DNA from: Terriglobia bacterium
Lineage (GTDB): Bacteria; Acidobacteriota; Terriglobia; Terriglobales; Acidobacteriaceae
Length of the DNA stretch: 42,852 nt
Reading direction: 5' to 3'
Assembly (NCBI GenBank): GCA_020073015.1
Contig: JAIQFZ010000026.1
Coordinates: 1-42,852, forward strand
Shown in pieces: positions 27,982 to 42,822 of this stretch (its first letter is position 1; each line of letters begins with the position of its first letter). The notes beneath the pieces were generated by a model. The model had not been told where the DNA came from and ran no database searches. It saw nothing but the letters and a program-made list of their open reading frames with translations. The translations under genes were made by a program, and so were the position numbers.

Positions 27982-28374
27982 TTACCCCGCCAGTTTGATA
28001 CGCAGTTGGACTTGGACATATTGATTGTCCTTACGGCGGACGCGGCAGTTCACTTTCTCGCCGCCCACGGATTCATTAATGAACGGAAGCTCATATTGAT
28101 CTCCCTCTTCTAGGGCTCTGGACCCACGCACTCGCCCGCTTGTCGGATGCAGTCCGCCTTTATCGAGCACCAGTCCCATTTGCTCGCAAGCACGCCAAAG
28201 CACCTGCCCGCCCGGGATCATGTCGCCATTCATGTACTTGTAGAGGGTGCCAATCTTAACCTGAAGTATGCGAGCTGCATCTTCTGGGCCCTGCGTTCGC
28301 TCGTCCACAGCCTTTTTCAAGGCCGACGCGATTTTCCCTCTGATCTCTTCGTCTTGTCTATGGCGTGTTTTCAT
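27982..28374 (-). CDS. HTH regulator of the island operon
   Basis: The 130 residues have an XRE-like helix-turn-helix (GPEDAARILQVKIGTLYKYMNGDMIPGGQVLWRACEQMG) after a basic N-terminus (MKTRHRQDEEIRGKIASALKKAVDE). A C-terminal region of about 60 residues is rich in beta strands (KVNCRVRRKDNQYVQVQLRIKLAG). It is divergent from the four-gene operon starting at 28512, with two inverted repeats in the 137-base gap. I infer autorepression and operon control. The C-terminal part could sense a signal; I do not recognise it. Confidence 0.75.
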   Translation of the reverse strand: MKTRHRQDEEIRGKIASALKKAVDERTQGPEDAARILQVKIGTLYKYMNGDMIPGGQVLWRACEQMGLVLDKGGLHPTSGRVRGSRALEEGDQYELPFINESVGGEKVNCRVRRKDNQYVQVQLRIKLAG

Positions 28375-28511: not shown

Positions 28512-30077
28512 ATGCTGCAGCAGACGTTTATCCACATTCCTGGCATCGGCAAGCTGACTGAGCAGGGCCTGTGGGAACACGGCATTCAGAGCTGGGACGA
28601 TGCAGACCGCTTTGAGAAGCGTTTTGGCGTGCTCGGTGCCAGACTGCAAAGAAAGCTCGATGAGTACATTCCCCGTTCGCGTGAAGCCATAAAACTCAAA
28701 GATGCTGGCTTTTTTGAGCGACTCTCTACGCTGGGTGAAGCGTGGAGGTTGTTCCCAGACTTCGCAAACGAGTGCATCTACCTCGACATCGAGACCACGG
28801 GCCTATCAACCGTCTTTGACACTGTGACGATGGTTGGGCTCTATGACGGTCGAAAGTACGAGATCTTCGTCGACGGAGAAAACCTGCAAGATCTTCCGAA
28901 ACGCCTGCAGAAGTATTCGGTGATCGTCACGTTCAACGGTTCCGGATTCGATTTGCGTTTTCTGCGACTGGCTTTCCCAGATCTGGTTTTGCCGCCCATT
29001 CATATCGACCTGCGGTGGGTCACCCGCAAGTTGGGAATGAAGGGTGGTCTCAAAGAGATAGAAGCGAAGTTCGGATTGCGCCGTACCGAAGACGTGGTCG
29101 ATTTGACGGGGTATGACGCGACAGTTCTCTGGGCACGATACCTCCGCGGCGACCGAGGCGCACTTCGCTCATTGATCCAGTACAACACCGAAGACGTGGT
29201 TCATCTAAAAGCAATCATGGAGATGGCCTACGACAGGCTATCCAAGCAAACAGCGGAGTTCCTGAAGAACTCGGCCAAAGCTGTATTTGCTGGGGTGGCT
29301 GAGTTGCCCAGGGTGCGGCGGCTCGGCAAGCACTCGGCTCCCGCTACAAATCCTGAAGGCTTAGTTCCCCGATTGTTGCAGAGGTGTCTCCCCGCCGGTG
29401 TAAACCCGCGGATCGTGGGAATTGATCTGACTGGCAGTGAACGACGGCCGACTGGTTGGGCGCTGATGGAAGGCGCAGAAGCGGCAACCAAAACACTGAG
29501 GACGGACGACGAGCTCTTCAACGAGACAGTTGCTGCTGATCCCGACCTTGTGTCAATCGACTCGCCCTTATCTTTGCCGGAGGGATGGACGGATCCAGAA
29601 GTTCCCTGCGGTCGGCCCATCTATCGGAAGTGCGAGCTCGCCCTGAAGCGGATGGGCATATCGGTCTTCTGGTGCTTGCTTCCGACTATGAAGGGCCTGA
29701 CCACTCGCGGAATGCGGCTCACTCAGAGGCTGCGCGCCGCGGGGTTAAGGGTGATCGAGAGCTACCCCGGCGCCGCCCAGGATCTGCTCGGCATTCCCCG
29801 CAAGGGCTCGAGTCTCGAAGAACTGAAATGGGGCCTTTCTCGGGCGGGCATTAATGGACCTTTTCTGCATGGCAAAGTCACGCATGATGAGGTGGACGCT
29901 ATCACATCCGCGCTCGTCGGGCTCTTCTACCTGGCCGACGATTACATCGCGCTGGGAAACGCCGCCGAGGATTACCTAGTCGTTCCAAGGTCCTTGCGAA
30001 TCAACTACCGCAAGCTCGGGGACATCCTTGCCGCGACAGGTTTGGACGAAATTCCGATGAGTGGGTCGATGGGGTAG
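28512..30077 (+). CDS. DEDDy RNase H-like exonuclease fused to DUF429
   Basis: The 521 residues contain an N-terminal HhH-like stretch (IPGIGKLTEQGLWEHGI, 9-25), a YprB-type RNase H-like domain (about 85-245) and a DUF429 domain (about 300-485). The exonuclease residues are all present: DIE (D92, E94), FD (D147 in NGSGFD) and YxxxD (Y224, D228). DUF429 also has an RNase H-like fold and keeps acidic motifs (VGIDLTG, SIDSPLSLPEG, HDEVDAITSAL). Both halves could therefore be nucleases. First gene of the operon; the kinase-like gene begins 12 bases downstream. The substrate (RNA, DNA or modified nucleic acid) is not known. Confidence 0.8.
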   Translation: MLQQTFIHIPGIGKLTEQGLWEHGIQSWDDADRFEKRFGVLGARLQRKLDEYIPRSREAIKLKDAGFFERLSTLGEAWRLFPDFANECIYLDIETTGLSTVFDTVTMVGLYDGRKYEIFVDGENLQDLPKRLQKYSVIVTFNGSGFDLRFLRLAFPDLVLPPIHIDLRWVTRKLGMKGGLKEIEAKFGLRRTEDVVDLTGYDATVLWARYLRGDRGALRSLIQYNTEDVVHLKAIMEMAYDRLSKQTAEFLKNSAKAVFAGVAELPRVRRLGKHSAPATNPEGLVPRLLQRCLPAGVNPRIVGIDLTGSERRPTGWALMEGAEAATKTLRTDDELFNETVAADPDLVSIDSPLSLPEGWTDPEVPCGRPIYRKCELALKRMGISVFWCLLPTMKGLTTRGMRLTQRLRAAGLRVIESYPGAAQDLLGIPRKGSSLEELKWGLSRAGINGPFLHGKVTHDEVDAITSALVGLFYLADDYIALGNAAEDYLVVPRSLRINYRKLGDILAATGLDEIPMSGSMG

Positions 30078-30089
30078 AATGCCCATTCA

Positions 30090-30659
30090 ATGCCCGACCA
30101 GAATTCACAGCAGCGGCAGGATGATCCGCGGGTTATCGGGATCACGGGTCGAATCGGGGCAGGCAAGACTTCGGTTGGAAAGTATCTCAGTTCGGCTCAC
30201 AGATTCTATTACGCGCGGTATAGTCAAGTTCTCTCTGATTGGCTGGCCAAGGACACAGAGAGCAAGGCCCACCTCCAGGCAGTCGGATGGAAAGTGATGG
30301 CAGGGGGTATGCAAGCAGAACTCAACACTCGTTTGATCTCGCAGTTGCCGGCACAGAGTGATTCCGCGGTGGATGGGTTGCGGCATTCTCTGGACTACGA
30401 GAGCCTTAACACCGCTTTCAGCCCTCACTTCTATCTGCTATTCATAAGCAGCCCGCCGGAACTGCGCTGGCCGCGCCTTCGATCCCGATACCCGAAACAG
30501 GATGACTTTGGCCGAGCAGACTCGCATCCGGTCGAACAACAAATTGATTCTCTGCGCGATAGAGCGTTCGCTGTGCTGGACAACGACAATTCGTTGCAGA
30601 GCCTCTATTCCAAGGTGGATGCTGTATTGAATAGGATCCGGGCAGGAGGTCCAAGGTGA
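30090..30659 (+). CDS. P-loop kinase, nucleotide- or dephospho-CoA-kinase-like
   Basis: The 189 residues have a Walker A motif GRIGAGKTS (near 20-28) followed by a kinase core (WPRLRSRYPKQDDFGRADSH in the lid region, VEQQIDSLRDRAFAVLDNDNSLQSLYSKVDAVL at the end). The layout fits small NMP kinases, dephospho-CoA kinase-like proteins and AAA_18-type proteins such as phage dNMP kinases. In this operon a (deoxy)nucleotide monophosphate substrate is the natural guess. It overlaps the next gene by four bases (GTGA), so they are translated together. No close family assignment is possible by eye. Confidence 0.72.
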   Translation: MPDQNSQQRQDDPRVIGITGRIGAGKTSVGKYLSSAHRFYYARYSQVLSDWLAKDTESKAHLQAVGWKVMAGGMQAELNTRLISQLPAQSDSAVDGLRHSLDYESLNTAFSPHFYLLFISSPPELRWPRLRSRYPKQDDFGRADSHPVEQQIDSLRDRAFAVLDNDNSLQSLYSKVDAVLNRIRAGGPR

Positions 30660-31759
30660 GTCTATGGGTTATAGTAGGCGGTCAATTTGGCGGGGAGGGC
30701 AAGGGCAAAATATCGGCCTTCATCACACGACAAGAAGAAATCGACATTTGCATTCGCTGTGGTGGGCCAAACTCCGGGCACACGTTCGTGGCAGAAGACG
30801 GCAGCACAGTCCTTCTGCGCCAGCTGCCAACTGGCTACATTAGGCCTGAGACTCGGCTACTGGTTCCGGCCGGAGCATTGGTTGACCTCACCGTCCTGAA
30901 GTACGAACTCGATTCATTACGGCTGGACCCGAAGCGTGTGGGCGTGGATCGCAATGCCATGATTATCGAGCAGAGTGACCGCGATCGGGAATCGCAACTT
31001 GGGCTGCGAGATCGGCTGAGTTCGACTCTTTGCGGCGTGGGTTCCGCCGTAGCCAGGCGCGCATTGCGCAGCGCAGACGTTAAACTAGCAGGTCAAGTTG
31101 CCCACGACGTGACTTGGCTGGCCGATCTTGTCACCGATGTGAGTGAAGAGGCGAATGTTGCACTCGATTGCGGAAAAAAGGTTCTCGTTGAGGGCACACA
31201 AGGATTCGGATTGTCGCTTTACCACACAGACTGCTATCCGAAGGCAACTTCGCGCGATACTACGGCGGCCGGTTTTCTGAGCGAAGTCGGCTTGAGCCCC
31301 ATGCTCGTTAGTGAAATTGTTGTTGTTTTCCGAACCTTCCCGATCCGAGTCGCTGGCGAACAGGCTGGGCCGATAAACGATGAGATCGACTGGGACATTT
31401 TGCGGCAAGAAAGCGGCTACCCTCACCCAATTCAAGAAATGACGACGGTGAGCAAGAAAGTACGCCGTGTGGGTCGCTTCGATTGGGAGCTCGCGGCACA
31501 CGCGGTTCGGTACAACAGACCAACTAGGCTCGCACTCAACGGTTTGGATTACATCAGTTATCGAGACTCAAACGCGAGCGACTGGATTACGTTATCCTCC
31601 CAGTCTAAAGAGTTTGTACGGCAGCTGAGCAGCAGATCCACGACTTCGGTCAACCTTATCGGCGTCGGTCCACGACTCGCGAATATCTTGGCGCTATCGA
31701 GCGGTATCGACGGGGGAATCTCAGCGATCTACGACACATCGCTAATTTTGAAGGGGTAG
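30656..31759 (+). CDS. PurZ-type adenylosuccinate synthetase relative
   Basis: GTG start, 367 residues, against about 430 for PurA. The GTP-loop reads GGQFGGEGKGKI: Gly13 stands where E. coli PurA has the catalytic Asp13. His42 in GPNSGHT (PurA His41) is kept. Further motifs are STLCGVGSA, EGTQGFGLSLYH, YPKATSRDTTAAGFLSEVG, FPIRVAGE, TTVSKKVRRVGRFDW and LNGLDY. From memory, TSRD, the HPIRVGG-like segment and TKKVRRV are typical of phage PurZ, which joins Asp to dGMP in the 2-aminoadenine pathway; PurZ also lacks the catalytic Asp. A PurZ-like activity is inferred. The organism should carry a normal purA elsewhere. Confidence 0.8.
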   Translation: MSLWVIVGGQFGGEGKGKISAFITRQEEIDICIRCGGPNSGHTFVAEDGSTVLLRQLPTGYIRPETRLLVPAGALVDLTVLKYELDSLRLDPKRVGVDRNAMIIEQSDRDRESQLGLRDRLSSTLCGVGSAVARRALRSADVKLAGQVAHDVTWLADLVTDVSEEANVALDCGKKVLVEGTQGFGLSLYHTDCYPKATSRDTTAAGFLSEVGLSPMLVSEIVVVFRTFPIRVAGEQAGPINDEIDWDILRQESGYPHPIQEMTTVSKKVRRVGRFDWELAAHAVRYNRPTRLALNGLDYISYRDSNASDWITLSSQSKEFVRQLSSRSTTSVNLIGVGPRLANILALSSGIDGGISAIYDTSLILKG

Positions 31760-31761
31760 AC

Positions 31762-32622
31762 ATGTCGAGAGAGGAAGATCGTCATAGTGAGGTAGAAAGA
31801 CTGCTACGGCTGAAGAATCGCCAGCCGACGAAGGACAACTTCCCCGGCACGGGAGTCGTGCTAAGCGACGGAATAAAAGCGTATTGTAAAGAGTTTGATT
31901 TAATATCTCCCCTTCGCGAGACCAATCTCAAACCTGCTAATTACAAATTGAGGGTCGGCGATGAATTCTCGATCGGCGGTGAGACCGGAACGCTTTCTTC
32001 CGAGCGAGGACATGACGAGTTAGTGGTGCCTCCATTTGAGGTTGCAATCATCAAGACGCTGGAAACCATCAACATGCCACGCTTTTTGATCGGGCGCTGG
32101 AACATTCAGGTCAAACGAGCATATCAGGGATTGATATGGGTAGGCGGGCCTCAAGTCGATGCCGGCTATGTGGGCCATCTGTTTTGCCCCATCTATAATC
32201 TCTCAGATCAGCCAGTAACACTGAGGTACGACGATCCGATTGCCATCATAGATTTTGAAAAGACCACTGAGTTTCACGAGAAACAATCGAAACCGTACCC
32301 CGACGTTCCGGAACTCGTCCTATTCGACGAGTACCCAAAACTGAAGAGCGCATTGGTCACGTTGGTGACCGAGAAACTCGAAGCATTCCAGAAGGATATT
32401 CAGAAGATCGATCAAAGCAGCAAGGAAAGTAGTGAAAAATTAGAAAATCGCTTCAACACTTTTGCAGCTGTAGCTCTCGGCGGTATGGGAATCCTTTTTG
32501 CTGTGTTAGCCCTTTTTGTCACGGTTGGTGATCCAAAAACTCTTCCATGGTGGGCATTTTTCAGTGTGACGTTCTCCTTCCTTGCGCTTCTAATTTCCGT
32601 CAGCATAAAGAAACTGCGCTGA
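31762..32622 (+). CDS. dUTPase/Dcd-fold protein with coiled coil and two C-terminal TM helices
   Basis: Residues 30-175 resemble the dCTP deaminase/dUTPase fold: NYKLRVGDEF (60-69), LVVPPFEVAIIKTLETINMP, GRWNIQVKRAYQGLIWVGGPQVDAGYVGHLFCPIYNLSDQPVTLRYDDPIAIIDF-like core (111-165). Asp133 matches the water-activating Asp of dUTPase (VIDSDY motif). The Glu that Dcd uses for deamination (VLEFYN) is replaced by Pro (FCPIYN), so deamination is unlikely. A coiled coil (196-232) leads to two membrane helices (about 234-255 and 263-282) with a basic tail. Such 2-TM ends are typical of pore-forming effectors in phage-defence systems. Last gene of the operon, two bases after its neighbour. The nucleotide-sensor/effector reading is inference. 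Confidence 0.68.
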   Translation: MSREEDRHSEVERLLRLKNRQPTKDNFPGTGVVLSDGIKAYCKEFDLISPLRETNLKPANYKLRVGDEFSIGGETGTLSSERGHDELVVPPFEVAIIKTLETINMPRFLIGRWNIQVKRAYQGLIWVGGPQVDAGYVGHLFCPIYNLSDQPVTLRYDDPIAIIDFEKTTEFHEKQSKPYPDVPELVLFDEYPKLKSALVTLVTEKLEAFQKDIQKIDQSSKESSEKLENRFNTFAAVALGGMGILFAVLALFVTVGDPKTLPWWAFFSVTFSFLALLISVSIKKLR

Positions 32623-33100: not shown

Positions 33101-33748
33101 ATGGCTAGACAGCAACGTACCACCACGGCTTCATTCCCTCAAGAAAGCCCAGCCGCAATCGCTCGGGTTGCGCTCTACGCCCGAGTGAGCACCCTCAACA
33201 ATCAGGATCCAGAAATGCAGCTCGCCGAACTGCGGGAATATGCGGGGCGCCGCGGCTGGCAGATCGTCGAGGAATTCACAGACCAAGGAGTATCGGGCTG
33301 CAAGGAATCCCGGCCGGCGCTCAACCGGATGATGTCAGATGCTTGTCGCAGACGGTTTGACGCAGTCCTGGTCTGGAAGATCGACCGTTTTGGGAGGTCC
33401 CTGAAACACCTCGTCAACGCTCTGGCCGAACTCGCAGCCCTCGGTGTGGCTTTCATCAGCCTGAGGGACAACCTGGACCTAAGCACTCCTTCGGGCCGGT
33501 TGATGTTCCAGATCATCGGCGCGATGGCTGAATTCGAGCGGGCATTGATCCAGGAGAGGGTCAGGGCGGGCATTCGCAATGCACGGGCCAAGGGCAAACG
33601 TCTTGGTCGACCGCGGGTTATTGTGGACGCTGCACGGATTGCCTCTCTACGCGCACGGGGACGCTCCTGGGCTCAGATCATGGACGAGATGGGGGTCAGC
33701 AAGGGTACAGCGCAGCGGGCATTCGTAGCCTTGCCCAAAATTGTCTAG
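33101..33748 (+). CDS. Serine recombinase of the resolvase/invertase family
   Basis: The 215 residues have the catalytic motif LYARVSTLNNQ (Ser30), the FTDQGVSGCKESRPALNRMM segment, KIDRFGRSLKHLVN with active-site Arg, and GRLMFQIIGAMAEFERALIQERVRAGI. A C-terminal helix-turn-helix (RARGRSWAQIMDEMGVSKGTAQRAF) completes the Tn3-resolvase layout. AGGAGG precedes the ATG. It probably resolves cointegrates or inverts a segment at nearby sites such as those at 32950-33011. It marks this island as mobile or formerly mobile. Confidence 0.9.
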   Translation: MARQQRTTTASFPQESPAAIARVALYARVSTLNNQDPEMQLAELREYAGRRGWQIVEEFTDQGVSGCKESRPALNRMMSDACRRRFDAVLVWKIDRFGRSLKHLVNALAELAALGVAFISLRDNLDLSTPSGRLMFQIIGAMAEFERALIQERVRAGIRNARAKGKRLGRPRVIVDAARIASLRARGRSWAQIMDEMGVSKGTAQRAFVALPKIV

Positions 33749-35178: not shown

Positions 35179-35213
35179 GAAGGCCCCGACAAAATCGGGG
35201 CCTTCGTGTTTTT
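35179..35213 (+). terminator. Intrinsic terminator abutting tRNA-Asn
   Basis: gaaggccccga (35179-35189), loop caaaa, tcggggccttc (35195-35205), then gtgttttt. Its last T is the first base of tRNA-Asn. Confidence 0.88.
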
Positions 35214-35289
35214 GGCCGGTAGCCAAGCTGGAAAGGCACGTGACTGTTACTCACGCCATTCGCAGGTTCGAATCCTGCCCGGCCACCCA
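35213..35289 (+). tRNA. tRNA-Asn (GTT)
   Basis: Acceptor TGGCCGG/CCGGCCA, discriminator C, CCA encoded. Anticodon stem CGTGA/TCACG with loop CTGTTAC; T arm GCAGG-TTCGAAT-CCTGC. It starts with U rather than G. Confidence 0.85.
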
Positions 35290-35306
35290 ATTTTGAGGAA
35301 ACACAA

Positions 35307-35452
35307 GGCTCGCTAGTTCAGCAGGAAGAACGCGGCTCTCATAGTGCGCCCCAACGGCGCAGATCACCAGCGGGGGAAGGACCCGCCCAGACAGATGTTG
35401 GTTAGGTCTGGTAAGCGAGACCAGGCTGGTTCGATTCCAGCGTCACCCACCA
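35307..35452 (+). ncRNA. tRNA-like composite, not foldable as a single tRNA
   Basis: The left end looks like a tRNA 5' half (GGCTCGC, TA, D arm GTTC-AGCAGGAA-GAAC). The right end is a clear tRNA 3' end (T arm GCTGG-TTCGATT-CCAGC, GTCACCC, A, CCA). The acceptors do not pair. In between, hairpins lie at 35345-35361 (tgcgc/gcgca), 35370-35386 (gcggg/cccgc) and 35387-35411 (ccagac/gtctgg). GGCTCGC at 35307 can pair with gcgag-a-cc at 35415-35422. It may be a rearranged pair of tRNAs or another structured RNA. Confidence 0.45.
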
Positions 35453-35457
35453 GATTC

Positions 35458-35533
35458 GCGGGATTGGCAGATATGGATATGCACTCGCCTTTTAAGCGAG
35501 ACGAAGTGGGTTCGATTCCCACATCCCGCACCA
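35458..35533 (+). tRNA. tRNA-Lys (TTT)
   Basis: Acceptor GCGGGAT/ATCCCGC, discriminator A, CCA encoded. Anticodon arm CTCGC-CTTTTAA-GCGAG; T arm GTGGG-TTCGATT-CCCAC. Confidence 0.92.
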
Positions 35534-35550
35534 GAGTCAGTTAACAAAGA

Positions 35551-35627
35551 GGCGGCATAGCATAACGGAACAATGCGCCGAGCTTCTACCTCGGACGATG
35601 AGAGTTCAAATCTCTCTGCCGCTTCCA
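35551..35627 (+). tRNA. tRNA-Arg (TCT)
   Basis: Acceptor GGCGGCA/TGCCGCT (G1-U72 wobble), discriminator T, CCA encoded. Anticodon arm CCGAG-CTTCTAC-CTCGG; T arm GAGAG-TTCAAAT-CTCTC. Confidence 0.9.
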
Positions 35628-35631
35628 ATTT

Positions 35632-35707
35632 GGGGATGTGGTCCAACGGATGAGGGCGCAAGGCTACGAACCTTGAGGTCAGAGTTCAATTCTCTGCATC
35701 CCCTCCA
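35632..35707 (+). tRNA. tRNA-Arg (ACG)
   Basis: Acceptor GGGGATG/CATCCCC, discriminator T, CCA encoded. Anticodon arm CAAGG-CTACGAA-CCTTG; T arm CAGAG-TTCAATT-CTCTG. A34 implies TadA-type inosine editing. Confidence 0.92.
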
Positions 35708-35717
35708 CATTAGTGAG

Positions 35718-35793
35718 GCTCGCGTGGTCTAAGGCATGATGACGCTTCGGTCCTAACGAAGAGATCCGGGTTGGATTCCCGGCGCGAGTTCCA
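35718..35793 (+). tRNA. tRNA-Arg (CCT)
   Basis: Acceptor GCTCGCG/CGCGAGT (G-U end pair), discriminator T, CCA encoded. Anticodon arm CTTCG-GTCCTAA-CGAAG; T arm CCGGG-TTGGATT-CCCGG. Confidence 0.9.
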
Positions 35794-35796
35794 GAT

Positions 35797-35872
35797 GGGT
35801 GGGTAGTGTAACCGAACAACACGGCAGCGTCCGAAGCTGCAAATCCGGGTTTGACTCCCGGCCCGCCCACCA
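35797..35872 (+). tRNA. tRNA-Arg (CCG)
   Basis: Acceptor GGGTGGG/CCCGCCC, discriminator A, CCA encoded. Anticodon arm GCAGC-GTCCGAA-GCTGC; T arm CCGGG-TTTGACT-CCCGG. Last tRNA of array 1; four of its six clear genes are Arg acceptors. Confidence 0.9.
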
Positions 35873-36915: not shown

Positions 36916-38418
36916 TTACGGACATCTGAGTATGGCGACCCCAATGCTGAGTGCACCGACCATCGCTCCGAACAAAGTCGCGACCGCAGCCGCGCCGGCA
37001 CTACACGGGAACAACCCGATGAGGGCGAGAGCGGCGGACAAGGCCGCCATCAGTAAAGCCATTGCGCCAAAGAAGCGCTGCAGGAAGCGGATCAGCATGC
37101 AGTCGCGGCAGATTGCTATCCAGAGTGCGAGCACTACGAGCCCGCTGGCCGCGAGAGTGAGCGCAGTCGCCTGAAGGCCAATGCCCGCAGGTCCGAGGCA
37201 GCCCCCGACCGCGAGACCGACGGACGCTAGACCGAGCAGAATCAACGCAAGCAAGAGCAGGAAGCCGCAGAGACCGCCCGAGGACGTTGGGGTGGGTGTT
37301 GGCGTCGGGGTTGGGGTGGGTGTCGGGGTTGGGGTGGGTGTTGGGGTTGGGGTCGGTGTTGGTGTTGGGGTCGGTGTTGGTGTTGGGGTCGGCGTCGGTG
37401 TTGGGGTCGGCGTCGGGGTCGGCGTCGGTGTTGGAGTCGGCGTCGGTGTTGGCGGCGGCGTGCAACGCGGAACGGTGACAATCAAGCTGTTGGCCGCAGT
37501 CGAACTGCCATTCGGACAGCTCGTACTGACAGTGACCCGGTACGTTCCCGGCCCTGGAAACGCGAAGCTGAATGAGGAGCCTCCCGTAACCGGCGTCGGG
37601 GCCAGCGGCGGCGCCGAAGCAGGCGCGACCGTGTCTCGCACCTCCCACGTGTACGAACCCGCGAAGGCAGGCGTCGGCGTGGCGGTGTAGGTTTGGAGCG
37701 GCGTCGGTGGCCCGTCCGTGCACGGCGTCAACGCCGGCCCCGACACTACCACAGTGCACGGTGGCGTGCACTGAACGATCTGGAAAGTGACGCTGTCGGT
37801 GAGAATGGGGTCGTCGCAAGCAGCATCCTGCTGAACCCTGACGTTGACCTTGTAGTTCGCGGCGACGGGGAAGAGGTAGGAGAAGGTCGAGGCTCCCAGC
37901 GTGAACGGCTGGAGCACGGCGCCGGTGGTAAGGTTCGTCACCTTCCACTCGAAGGGCCCCTTACACCCCGCCGGCGAGAGCACCGCCGAAAACTGGACCG
38001 AGACTGAACCACCGCCCACCGGGATGCAAGGTAGGGGCTGGGTGTCGATCTCCATTGTCACTTCATCACAGCACTCGGGTGTATCCGTGCCGCATTGGAG
38101 CTTTACCTGAGAGAAAGTCTTAGTACACGTCGGATCGTTGTCGCAGGTGACAGTGATGGTTCGTGGTGAATCGCAGGGGCAGGATTCCTTGTTCAGAAAC
38201 TCGTACACCCAGATGCCCGCCGCGTTGACGCTGAGGCCGCGGACCCCATCCCCGCACGTCGTCCCTACGGATACTGTGGGCGGTCCTCCGGCTTGCGGAG
38301 GCGGGCATCCCGTAATGGTGCCCCTCACCCGGAGGAAAGGAGGGATCCCTGGCCCAGGAAACGCTGTTCCGCCCAGCGCGGTAATGCCGCGAAACTCGAC
38401 GAGTGTGATGACGCACAT
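36916..38418 (-). CDS. PKD-like surface protein with Thr-Pro stalk and C-terminal membrane helices
   Basis: The 500 residues comprise an N-terminal Cys-rich part (TGCPPPQAG, NKESCPCDSPRTITVTCDNDPTC, CGTDTPECCDEV), PKD/Ig-like segments (PFEWKVTNLTTGAVLQPF, AGSYTWEVRDTV, PGTYRVTVSTSCPNGS), a stalk of about 28 Thr-Pro units, and four hydrophobic helices at the end (FLLLLALILLGLASVGLAVGG and following). No N-terminal signal peptide is seen, which is odd for a surface protein; the C-terminal helices could anchor it. The stalk is encoded by a 6-base tandem repeat. I recognise no function; glycosylation of Thr residues is possible. Confidence 0.72.
   Translation of the reverse strand: MCVITLVEFRGITALGGTAFPGPGIPPFLRVRGTITGCPPPQAGGPPTVSVGTTCGDGVRGLSVNAAGIWVYEFLNKESCPCDSPRTITVTCDNDPTCTKTFSQVKLQCGTDTPECCDEVTMEIDTQPLPCIPVGGGSVSVQFSAVLSPAGCKGPFEWKVTNLTTGAVLQPFTLGASTFSYLFPVAANYKVNVRVQQDAACDDPILTDSVTFQIVQCTPPCTVVVSGPALTPCTDGPPTPLQTYTATPTPAFAGSYTWEVRDTVAPASAPPLAPTPVTGGSSFSFAFPGPGTYRVTVSTSCPNGSSTAANSLIVTVPRCTPPPTPTPTPTPTPTPTPTPTPTPTPTPTPTPTPTPTPTPTPTPTPTPTPTPTPTPTPTSSGGLCGFLLLLALILLGLASVGLAVGGCLGPAGIGLQATALTLAASGLVVLALWIAICRDCMLIRFLQRFFGAMALLMAALSAALALIGLFPCSAGAAAVATLFGAMVGALSIGVAILRCP
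37289..37459. repeat. Hexanucleotide tandem repeat encoding Thr-Pro
   Basis: About 28 imperfect units of GGNGTN on the + strand (ggggtg, ggtgtt, ggcgtc, ggggtt ...), coding (Thr-Pro)n on the - strand. It is prone to slippage and copy-number change. Confidence 0.9.
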
Positions 38419-41426: not shown

Positions 41427-41498
41427 GGCAGCGTCGTCTAACGGCCAGGATGCGTCTCTTTCAAGGCTGAGATGGGAGTTCGATTCTCCTCGCTGCTA
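41427..41498 (+). tRNA. tRNA-Glu (TTC)
   Basis: Acceptor GGCAGCG/CGCTGCT (G1-U72), discriminator A; CCA is not encoded (ATC follows). Anticodon loop CTTTCAA on a stem with one mismatch (CGTCT/GGCTG); T arm GGGAG-TTCGATT-CTCCT. Confidence 0.85.
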
Positions 41499-41506
41499 TC
41501 AAAGTT

Positions 41507-41698
41507 ATGAGTACACAAACGATTGAACTCGAAGGCTTTGAGATCGAACTAGCGTCGGAGCTCTACTGCGATCGCGGTGGGGATCATCGCGAATTGGTGG
41601 ATCGTGCCCGTACGGACCGCAGGAGACTTGGGCATAACGTCGATGAATCGGCGGTGCTGTGCGTCCGGTGCACGAAAGCCATACCGTTGAAAGCGTGA
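41507..41698 (+). CDS. Possible small Cys-containing protein inside the tRNA array
   Basis: The 63 residues (MSTQTIELEGFEIELASELY then CDRGGDHRELVDRARTD...) contain three Cys residues (LYCDRGG, LCVRC), a possible zinc-binding set. The stop falls right before tRNA-Gln. No ribosome site precedes ATG 41507. It may be a real gene of the array region or a chance frame. Confidence 0.4.
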   Translation: MSTQTIELEGFEIELASELYCDRGGDHRELVDRARTDRRRLGHNVDESAVLCVRCTKAIPLKA

Positions 41699-41772
41699 TG
41701 CCGGGTCGTCTAGTGGCAGGACCCTGGACTTTGAATCCGGATACGGGCGTTCGAATCGCTCCCCGGCAGCCA
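41699..41772 (+). tRNA. tRNA-Gln (TTG)
   Basis: Acceptor TGCCGGG/CCCGGCA with U1-A72 as usual for Gln, discriminator G, CCA encoded. Anticodon arm CTGGA-CTTTGAA-TCCGG; T arm GGGCG-TTCGAAT-CGCTC. Confidence 0.92.
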
Positions 41773-41902
41773 GTTTTGAAAAGTCAGCAAAGGAGGAAGC
41801 TCATTGACGAGCGATGGAGAGAAATTCGAGGAGTGGTGAAGGCTACGGTTACTTCTCTTGTCCAGAAAACACACCGTATCCGCAGGTTCCCTCCTCAATA
41901 GT
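41773..41902 (+). other. Spacer with a strong ribosome site but no clear gene
   Basis: AAAGGAGG (41789-41796) lies six bases before an ATT (41803) that opens 33 codons, or TTG (41804) opening 11. ATT starts are very rare. I list it only because the ribosome site is perfect. Confidence 0.25.
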
Positions 41903-41978
41903 TGCGAGGTCATTCAACTGGCCAGGATAACCGGCTCTGACCCGGTTCATGCACGTTCGAATCGTGCCCTCGCAGCCA
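41903..41978 (+). tRNA. tRNA-Gln (CTG)
   Basis: Acceptor TGCGAGG/CCTCGCA with U1-A72, discriminator G, CCA encoded. Anticodon arm ACCGG-CTCTGAC-CCGGT; T arm GCACG-TTCGAAT-CGTGC. Confidence 0.92.
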
Positions 41979-41989
41979 ATTTAGAAAGT

Positions 41990-42063
41990 GGTCGCAGAGT
42001 CTAGCGGCAGGATGCCTGACTGTCTATCAGGAGGGACGGGTTCAACTCCCGTTGCGACCGCCA
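41990..42063 (+). tRNA. tRNA-Asp (GTC)
   Basis: Acceptor GGTCGCA/TGCGACC, discriminator G, CCA encoded. Anticodon arm CCTGA-CTGTCTA-TCAGG; T arm ACGGG-TTCAACT-CCCGT. Potential queuosine/GluQ substrate. Confidence 0.92.
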
Positions 42064-42064
42064 C

Positions 42065-42141
42065 AGGGGTGATGACCCGATGGGAAGGGCGCTCGTCTCC
42101 AAAACGAGTTCAAGCAGGTTCGAATCCTGTCACCCCTGCCA
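42065..42141 (+). tRNA. tRNA-Trp (CCA)
   Basis: Acceptor AGGGGTG/CACCCCT, discriminator G, CCA encoded. Anticodon arm CTCGT-CTCCAAA-ACGAG; T arm GCAGG-TTCGAAT-CCTGT. Confidence 0.93.
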
Positions 42142-42150
42142 GTTTGAAGA

Positions 42151-42225
42151 GCGAGCATGGTATAGCAGCTGGTGCCTCGGGCCTCCAACCCGATGACGCG
42201 AGTTCAACTCTCGCTGCTCGCTCCA
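42151..42225 (+). tRNA. tRNA-Gly (TCC), with C33
   Basis: Acceptor GCGAGCA/TGCTCGC, discriminator T, CCA encoded. Anticodon arm TCGGG-CCTCCAA-CCCGA: position 33 is C instead of the near-universal U. T arm GCGAG-TTCAACT-CTCGC. Confidence 0.88.
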
Positions 42226-42238
42226 TAGATTTTATAAG

Positions 42239-42314
42239 GCGGAAGTCGTCTAGTGGCCAAGACGCGACGTTGCCAACGTCGAAACCGCGGGTTCGAGTCC
42301 CGCCTTCCGCTCCA
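42239..42314 (+). tRNA. tRNA-Gly (GCC)
   Basis: Acceptor GCGGAAG/CTTCCGC, discriminator T, CCA encoded. Anticodon arm CGACG-TTGCCAA-CGTCG; T arm GCGGG-TTCGAGT-CCCGC. Confidence 0.93.
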
Positions 42315-42335
42315 GATTCAGTAAGTAGGTTATGA

Positions 42336-42411
42336 GGCGGTGTAGCCAAGACAGCAAGGCGTCTGCCTGCAAAGGAGATCATCGGGAGTGGAATTCTCCC
42401 CACCGCCTCCA
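42336..42411 (+). tRNA. tRNA-Cys (GCA)
   Basis: Acceptor GGCGGTG/CACCGCC, discriminator T, CCA encoded. Anticodon arm TCTGC-CTGCAAA-GGAGA with one G-G mismatch; T arm GGGAG-TGGAATT-CTCCC. Confidence 0.88.
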
Positions 42412-42432
42412 GATTTCGTGAAGACGTTTTGT

Positions 42433-42504
42433 GCTGGTGTAGCTCAGTAGGAAGAGCACGGGCCTCGTAAGTCCGTGATCGGCGTTCGAATCGCCGCACC
42501 AGCT
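42433..42504 (+). tRNA. tRNA-Thr (CGT)
   Basis: Acceptor GCTGGTG/CACCAGC, discriminator T, followed by CCG rather than CCA, because the next tRNA begins at 42507. Anticodon arm CGGGC-CTCGTAA-GTCCG; T arm CGGCG-TTCGAAT-CGCCG. Confidence 0.9.
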
Positions 42505-42506
42505 CC

Positions 42507-42581
42507 GCTGGTATAGCTCAACGGGAAGAGCAGGCGCATGGTAAGCGCCCGACCGCAGTTCGAGGCTGCGTGCCAGCTCCA
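42507..42581 (+). tRNA. tRNA-Thr (GGT)
   Basis: Acceptor GCTGGTA/TGCCAGC, discriminator T, CCA encoded. Anticodon arm GGCGC-ATGGTAA-GCGCC; T arm CGCAG-TTCGAGG-CTGCG. Acceptor shared with the two flanking Thr genes suggests tandem duplication. Confidence 0.92.
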
Positions 42582-42587
42582 AAGTTT

Positions 42588-42661
42588 GCTGGTCTAGCAC
42601 AGTGGGAGTGCAGAGAGCTTGTACCTCTCCGACGAGTGTTCGATTCACTCGACCAGCTCCA
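42588..42661 (+). tRNA. tRNA-Thr (TGT)
   Basis: Acceptor GCTGGTC/GACCAGC, discriminator T, CCA encoded. Anticodon arm GAGAG-CTTGTAC-CTCTC; T arm GAGTG-TTCGATT-CACTC. Confidence 0.92.
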
Positions 42662-42669
42662 GATTCGAT

Positions 42670-42745
42670 GGCGGGATTGGCCGAATGGCTTAGGCACTGG
42701 ATTGTGGCTCCAGTCACGAGAGTTCGATTCTCCCATCTCGCCCCA
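42670..42745 (+). tRNA. tRNA-His (GTG)
   Basis: Encoded G-1 opposite discriminator C73, the His identity pair; acceptor GCGGGAT/ATCTCGC; CCA encoded. Anticodon arm CTGGA-TTGTGGC-TCCAG; T stem has one A-C mismatch. Confidence 0.92.
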
Positions 42746-42748
42746 ATT

Positions 42749-42822
42749 GGGCGGTTCGTATAACGGGATTACTCACGGCCTGCAACCGTGAAATGCGAGT
42801 TCAATTCTCGCACCGTCCACCA
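42749..42822 (+). tRNA. tRNA-Ala (TGC), with C33
   Basis: Acceptor GGGCGGT/ACCGTCC contains the G3-U70 pair that defines alanine tRNA; discriminator A, CCA encoded. Anticodon arm CACGG-CCTGCAA-CCGTG, again with C at position 33. T arm GCGAG-TTCAATT-CTCGC. Confidence 0.9.

Follow-up and report, generated by a model that had tools for sequence, protein, structure and literature searches.

A recurrent cassette built around a PurZ-like synthetase: a candidate nucleotide-signalling system in bacteria and archaea

The stretch of Terriglobia contig JAIQFZ010000026.1 analysed here (42,852 nucleotides, nt; referred to as the window) carries a four-gene cassette in which a synthetase related to the PurZ enzymes of Z-DNA phages stands third in a packed run of plus-strand genes. 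In order, these encode a nuclease protein of 521 amino acids (aa) with RNase_H_2 and DUF429 domains (28512..30077), a P-loop nucleoside-monophosphate-kinase-like protein of 189 aa (30090..30659), the PurZ-like succino-purine nucleotide synthetase of 367 aa (30656..31759), and a 286-aa protein of the dUTPase/dCTP-deaminase (DCD) fold (31762..32622), the successive junctions being 12 nt, a 4-nt overlap and 2 nt. The unit recurs in both bacteria and archaea, and its combination of a synthetase, kinases and a nucleotide-binding membrane protein that is probably dead matches what one would expect of a signal paired with an effector. Judging from sequence and from analogy with known systems, we put at roughly 0.48 the probability that the cassette is a nucleotide-signalling, probably anti-viral, system in which an activating signal leads to membrane damage.

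The PurZ-like open reading frame (ORF), which begins with GTG, can be taken as a real gene because of its PF00709 (Adenylsucc_synt) score of 141.6 bits against a cut-off of 27, its full-length homologues, which align from the same start region, and its close fit between the upstream and downstream genes. The original prediction had described an adenylosuccinate-synthetase-fold enzyme in which Gly replaces the catalytic Asp13, and the ORF bears this out: the segments GGQFGGEGKGK, GGPNSGHT, TSRDTTA, FPIRVAG and TVSKKVRRV are all present, with the catalytic His retained. Replacement of Asp13 is a trait of the whole family. Across 80 family ORFs the site is occupied by Ser in 66 and by Gly in 11, the remaining three being unmatched by the search pattern (two have Ser by eye and one lacks its N-terminus), and Asp is found in none of the 79 that are readable. 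Gly is also not confined to the window, being present at 10 other loci. Ser or Gly at this site marks PurZ-related sequences: four archaeal members are described with one or the other, and the 147 from phages all have Ser (PMC12884076).

The best NCBIfam match of the enzyme is the short synthetase model PRK04293 (295 bits, below the cut-off of 368), and it also scores under the cut-offs of the phage PurZ model NF038379 (221.9 bits, cut-off 300) and the PurA model TIGR00184 (179.7 bits, cut-off 395.55); among PHROGs it matches phrog_1211, the phage 2-amino-adenylosuccinate synthetase family, with 217 bits. In a tree of 100 rows, including six of PurA and eight of phage PurZ, obtained by a quick search with support from the Shimodaira–Hasegawa-like approximate likelihood-ratio test (SH-aLRT) only, the PurA rows stand apart (support 100), followed by the Asp-bearing synthetase of P. 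horikoshii and a Rhizobium 7-deazapurine-cluster protein. Besides phage PurZ and PurZ0, the Asp-less clade (92 rows, support 100) contains a lineage with a fused kinase, two Nanoarchaeota and 79 rows that form a cellular clade; the window enzyme lies within this last group (SH-aLRT 94), beside the eight phage rows and outside the phage PurZ and PurZ0 clades. The phylogeny thus upholds the earlier assignment to the PurZ type rather than the PurA type, but the further likeness to phage PurZ does not amount to identity, which is ruled out by the model cut-off and by grouping with the cellular cassettes. A role in 7-deazapurine biosynthesis, as for the Rhizobium plasmid PurA-like gene, is likewise rejected, since that protein retains the Asp and falls outside the Asp-less clade. 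The Rhizobium gene itself (R. leguminosarum plasmid, L020:5375-12904; loci carry L numbers throughout) lies with folE, purB, queE, queC and nitrile hydratase genes, and probably serves 7-deazapurine biosynthesis.

The host genome (5.5 Mb, 99% complete) carries a separate normal PurA (588 bits), and a second PF00709 copy was found in 25 of 26 carrier genomes searched (23 full-length and two short archaeal copies; the exception is the genome of L090), so the cassette enzyme is not the sole synthetase in these organisms. A new use for a chromosomal PurZ-like enzyme had been proposed for the window, and the direction of that proposal stands; the evidence for it comes from the neighbouring genes, on which the proposal had not drawn. 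Ten window proteins were scanned against Pfam and six against PHROGs, and no DatZ, MazZ or DpoZ was found among those six, the rest of the genome not having been searched for them.

The nuclease protein opens with a region that looks helix-hairpin-helix-like by eye, followed by an RNase_H_2 DEDDy 3'-5' exonuclease domain (about residues 89-239; 112.4 bits) and a DUF429 RuvC-like RNase-H-fold domain (about residues 300-475), the latter at 23.7 bits, barely above its cut-off of 23. Its predicted structure, with a predicted local distance difference test score (pLDDT) of 84, resembles NrnC, diDNase and the exonuclease domain of Pol epsilon, and RuvC. Exonuclease residues D92, E94, D147, Y224 and D228 and DUF429 acids D305, D350, E416, D424 and D462 are invariant in all 26 aligned nuclease proteins. 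The kinase-like protein, with matches in Pfam, PADLOC, PHROGs and NCBIfam, has relatives in phage deoxynucleoside-monophosphate (dNMP) kinase and in the kinase portion of the dCTP deaminases that act in defence. In 44 of 64 nuclease proteins it is joined to the nuclease as one chain. Its P-loop module resembles that of the defence deaminases (PADLOC dCTPase, 3e-12; NF041025, E 5e-4); unlike them, the window kinase gene has no deaminase domain match, and its DCD partner is of another fold lacking the deaminase Glu. The central exonuclease motif is missing from nine of the 64 nuclease-family proteins, seven of PHP type and two incomplete (L031, L047). At L064, L074, L083, L090, L091, L096 and L100 the exonuclease part is swapped for another N-terminal region, which in L064 consists of HHH_8 and PHP with the kinase retained, the other six being similar to L064 there.

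The DCD protein, the candidate effector, has a core matching PF22769 (42.8 bits). In its model (pLDDT 85) this core is like the dUTPase of T. pacificus (8Y1W; template-modelling score 0.87 by target length), and beyond it extend a 59-residue helix (197-255) and a last helix (263-285), with hydrophobic segments at 235-253 and 264-282. Pro143 occupies the position of the catalytic Glu of dCTP deaminase, E138 in the E. coli enzyme; the register comes from an alignment with the solved dCTP deaminases 4XJC and 2QXX, in which VDPGFNGQITLELFN is set against VDPGFeGrLliPlhN. Once three sequences shorter than 180 aa and two unreadable by the pattern are removed from the 70 family hits, the site is Pro in 64 of the 65 that remain and Leu in one, and every one of the 65 has F, Y or W directly after VDPG. 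An active dCTP deaminase is ruled out by this near-universal Pro. Hydrophobic segments, nearly always C-terminal, were detected in 61 of 64 full-length DCD members as against one of 64 nuclease proteins, by a loose test that 14 of 80 PurZ proteins also pass. The family thus resembles dCTP deaminases and dUTPases (4XJC, 8Y1W) in fold and in the VDPG[F/Y/W]xG motif but departs from them in its Pro, its long helix and its hydrophobic C-terminus, features that together point to likely membrane helices attached to a nucleotide-fold domain that lacks the deaminase Glu. A dUTPase-like protein acting on purines has a precedent in the Z-phage enzyme DutZ, which hydrolyses purine dNTPs (PMC12884076).

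A profile scan of 84,980 species genomes returned 407 PurZ relatives, the best 80 of which, together with the window, make up the 81 loci considered here. With iterated profiles, 63 of these loci were found to have the nuclease (RNaseH2-DUF429) protein and 63 to have the DCD protein, 53 of them having the two together; the loci include those of Granulicella (L032) and Nitrosomonas (L054). The junction from the nuclease or kinase gene to PurZ is at most 50 nt in 54 of 58 cases measured, and that from PurZ to the DCD gene in 47 of 51. Loci with both partners span 18 named phyla, including Methanobacteriota (three loci) and Promethearchaeota (one), the count for Binatota resting on a single metagenome-assembled genome (MAG) whose PurZ is identical to one from Dehalococcoidia. 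This identity, between MAGs assigned to Dehalococcoidia and Binatia (L049 and L051), reflects either recent transfer or a binning error. Over 42 loci, pairwise distances co-vary between PurZ and nuclease (r 0.61), PurZ and DCD (0.63) and nuclease and DCD (0.42), with a permutation maximum of 0.29, in line with genes that are passed on as one unit. Within the phylum of the window, full-length nuclease proteins (> 700 bits) occur in three of 396 genomes, the same three that carry a cassette-type PurZ; 11 other, weaker nuclease hits cover no more than the exonuclease domain, and in a fourth genome there is a PurZ relative that scores less well. Two of 24 genomes examined in the genus carry the cassette (G000, G014), at different sites: that of the window adjoins a recombinase and a tRNA cluster, and that of L023, whose DCD gene runs past the contig end, a tyrosine-integrase-like and an mnmE-like gene (named by eye). 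Several of these counts are affected by how ORFs and contigs were treated. ORFs were picked greedily and some partners escaped: none was scored in L034, although its contig is that of L024, in which both a DCD gene and an F4 gene were found, and the DCD ORFs of L035 and L036 appear only in shortened form. Judged by length and kinship, three contigs occur twice, L023 being the same as L029, L024 as L034 and L025 as L053. L042 bears an AAA-type label in the trees because of an AAA hit at a distance of 5 kb, yet it carries a nuclease gene.

The cassette is also elaborated in various ways. A separate deoxynucleoside kinase is present in 26 loci (PF01712 in the two members scanned), that of L070 on the other strand; L043 and L092 are also among these loci. 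At L052, L053, L059, L091, L099 and L106 an AAA ATPase of 593-870 aa follows the PurZ-like gene in place of the DCD gene (PF00004 in L052, the member scanned), and may be an alternative, putative effector. Single-chain kinase-PurZ fusions of 536-543 aa form a separate subtype (L021:5365-6996, L022:5410-7020, L026:8165-9787) and neighbour DUF7002 proteins (L021, L022) and IrrE-type peptidase proteins (L022, L026); the fusion in L022 also adjoins what look by eye like type I restriction genes. Another recurrent neighbour of PurZ is a family of about 250 aa (17 loci with hits, among them L095, L098, L106, L058 and L065), present even in Nanoarchaeota, where other partners were not found; the sole member scanned, from L106, has no Pfam or PHROG match. 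In rhizobial-type loci an HD protein of a phage dNMP-phosphatase family (phrog_318) stands beside PurZ (L019:5302-5904, L021:7729-8277, L055:7260-7898, L093:7299-7934).

How such a cassette might function can be outlined from its parts. The exonuclease/RuvC-like protein would act on, or be licensed by, foreign or damaged DNA and release 5'-dNMPs, including deoxyguanosine monophosphate (dGMP), which the PurZ-like enzyme would turn into succino-amino-dAMP. The dNMP kinase, joined in many loci by the deoxynucleoside kinase, and the nucleoside-diphosphate kinase of the host would then raise the succino product to the di- or triphosphate. Finally, the catalytically dead DCD-fold protein would bind this abnormal deoxynucleotide, and its C-terminal helices would damage the inner membrane, so that the infected cell dies or is arrested. 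That dGMP is the likely substrate is suggested by the company the enzyme keeps, as the exonuclease, the dNMP and deoxynucleoside kinases, the dUTPase fold and the rhizobial dNMP phosphatase all belong to deoxynucleotide-handling families. PurZ of phages S-2L and phiVC8 converts dGMP and Asp to dSMP (PMC8342488), and dITP, another base-altered purine deoxynucleotide, serves as an immune second messenger in the Kongming system (PMC12948488). The broader proposal is held with somewhat greater reserve than the signalling role itself and should be viewed as tentative: this may be a widespread form of bacterial and archaeal immunity in which a host PurZ homologue makes a succino- or 2-amino-deoxyadenine messenger from dGMP, sensed by a dead dUTPase/dCTP-deaminase fold with membrane helices, with the PurZ of Z genomes as its viral counterpart and lone viral PurZ genes as counter-measures.

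Several observations weigh against this scheme. The pocket residues that the window enzyme has in common with PurZ are mostly found in PurA too, so its sequence does not establish a preference for dGMP over GMP or for deoxy- over ribonucleotides. The V241-type exclusion of the 2'-OH described for PurZ (PMC8342488) does not distinguish between the families, since this RV is also found in the PurA of the host. Some loci have no nuclease protein (the DCD-only types) and others no DCD protein (the AAA-ATPase type), and thus no partner is strictly obligatory. In two archaea an adenylosuccinate lyase gene follows the cassette (L036:10732-12117 and L044:4422-5795; 53% identical to one another), and the end product may therefore be a 2-aminoadenine nucleotide rather than the succino form. 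Enrichment in defence genes was not demonstrated: a PADLOC search of 118 genes, taken from either side of PurZ as its closest neighbours wherever the locus extended far enough, did not set them apart from the control. It gave few members per family, and the control of 76 ORFs from 20 arbitrary stretches of related genomes was filled, and so confounded, by PD-T4-6 and other Ser/Thr-kinase-type families, the comparison covering the first 25 of 98 and of 54 families, respectively. Finally, viral contigs that carry the synthetase with no partners nearby are at least as well explained by an inhibitory signal.

An inhibitory signal of the guard type is indeed the main rival, unlikely as it is on present evidence. 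Here PurZ and the kinase would constantly make a succino- or amino-dA nucleotide that keeps the DCD membrane protein closed; depletion of deoxynucleotides by a phage would remove it and trigger killing, and phages would bring a lone synthetase to satisfy the guard. An inhibitory nucleotide is employed by the Clover system (PMC12265719), and the viral relatives are pertinent. Of 230 found, the best 80 were examined, and 18 of these were placed in a second tree (again quick, with SH-aLRT only), in which the viral PurZ of L153, L154, L155 and L164 branch, with starred support, at four separate points within the clade of cellular cassettes. Neither these four nor any other of the 80 viral loci holds the nuclease and DCD membrane protein pair within the flanks fetched (up to 5 kb): nuclease-profile hits in five loci are the ORF spanning the PurZ match itself, that is, kinase-PurZ fusions, and three DCD-profile hits are 144-aa proteins of dUTPase size. 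Repeated viral capture of the synthetase alone suggests an arms race, and is equally a prediction of the guard model. Against the guard model, the nuclease module has no obvious role in it, and viral PurZ may serve Z-DNA synthesis or some other purpose, the contigs of L154 and L155 having a DNA_pol_A gene. The lone genes could possibly act in counter-defence or have another viral use. DNA_pol_A was found in all four known Z phages and in five of nine viral records searched; it was not seen in L153, L156, L158 and L164, whose contigs may be incomplete. MazG, the other Z-phage marker tried, rose above its cut-off in none of 13 records, the four known Z phages included. Lone cassette-type PurZ genes, with neither a nuclease nor a DCD membrane protein in the flanks fetched, lie on the IMG/VR contigs of L153, L154, L155, L158 and L164 (81, 188, 105, 312 and 250 kb, respectively), of which L155 has an oddly repetitive flank and may be chimeric.

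Two further explanations, each improbable, dispense with a signal. An abnormal dNTP of the succino-dA or dZTP type might poison viral polymerases directly, with the DCD-fold membrane protein as an immunity or disposal factor; a synthetase with kinases would indeed finish at a triphosphate, but a DCD domain that lacks the deaminase Glu and carries hydrophobic helices is unlike a hydrolytic immunity enzyme. The cassette might instead maintain the nucleotide pool, repair DNA or modify the DNA of the host, for instance by placing 2-aminoadenine in it at a low level, an idea no easier to credit than the antimetabolite. An exonuclease, kinases and a protein like dUTPase are enzymes typical of pool maintenance, and the archaeal lyase neighbours are in keeping with such a role; the patchy spread within the phylum, the different sites occupied in congeners, the dead DCD domain and the lack of a polymerase among the window's cassette genes in the Pfam scan argue against it. 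Ordinary PurA is ruled out by the tree, the residues at the Asp13 site and redundancy with the second PF00709 copy, and a drifting PurA paralogue making AMP is very improbable, for the shared fold and active-site residues are set against the family-wide loss of Asp13, a position outside the PurA clade, the second copy in nearly all carriers and recurrent partners from outside the purine pathway. A remnant or relative of a Z-DNA phage is scarcely credible: the phrog_1211 match and a nearby recombinase favour it, but the enzyme groups with cellular cassettes rather than with the eight phage rows, and none of the 80 viral loci held the partner pair in the flanks fetched.

The signalling interpretation acquires context from the systems it most resembles. 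Like the PurZ and PurZ0 of Z phages (phiVC8, S-2L, Ghobes), the window enzyme has the adenylosuccinate-synthetase fold without Asp13 and with the His, in the same Asp-less clade; unlike them, it belongs to a separate cellular lineage and is partnered with a nuclease, a kinase and a dead DCD membrane protein. With the archaeal short synthetases of PRK04293 (P. horikoshii, 2D7U), its best NCBIfam match, it shares a similar length, but P. horikoshii has Asp13 and stands elsewhere in the tree. In Kongming, KomA carries an adenosine-deaminase domain, the sensor KomB a house-cleaning-NTPase fold and KomC a SIR2 domain. Neither an adenosine-deaminase nor a SIR2-type domain gave a Pfam match among the ten window proteins at E 0.1, and the 2023 PADLOC-DB may predate Kongming. 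The inferred logic is alike, in that kinases help to make a base-altered purine deoxynucleotide that a sensor reads, but in Kongming it is KomA that converts dAMP to dITP, and the outcome is that KomC depletes NAD+ (PMC12948488); the Kongming genes are unrelated to those of the cassette.

No description of the cassette was found in the literature searched, among the matches listed (in several cases part of hundreds or thousands), nor did the literature search find a paper joining adenylosuccinate synthetase with an anti-phage defence system. A dUTPase domain is one of the uncharacterised domains to which the DefensePredictor study assigns a predicted defence role, and the terms adenylosuccinate, DUF429 and dCTP are absent from its main text. 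The nearest cellular relatives of PurZ described so far are four archaeal sequences of uncertain tree position (PMC12884076). If the proposal is true, aspartate-bearing or diaminopurine deoxynucleotides would form a new class of immune second messenger, read by a new type of sensor and found from a Lokiarchaeote to cyanobacteria, and the PurZ enzymes that underlie Z-DNA genomes would gain a cellular setting. Should the product prove not to be a signal, the recurrence of a synthetase-nuclease-kinase-sensor unit across 18 named phyla would still raise a directly testable question.

In the window the cassette is flanked by two further genes. Upstream and divergent is a small helix-turn-helix (HTH) protein of 130 aa (27982..28374, minus strand), a probable regulator (HTH_3, E 0.003, below its cut-off); divergent genes weakly similar to it (18-27 bits) adjoin the cassette in L028, L029, L032 and L034. 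Downstream is a serine recombinase/invertase (33101..33748, plus strand; Pfam, PHROGs and NCBIfam matches), a possible mobility gene that is not itself a cassette member, and no direct repeats of 18 nt or longer were found around the island. Further downstream are two dense tRNA clusters (35213-35872, six genes; 41427-42822, 13 genes), and on the minus strand at 36916-38418 an ORF of 500 aa, perhaps for a surface protein, in which hydrophobic stretches come after a long Pro-Thr repeat.

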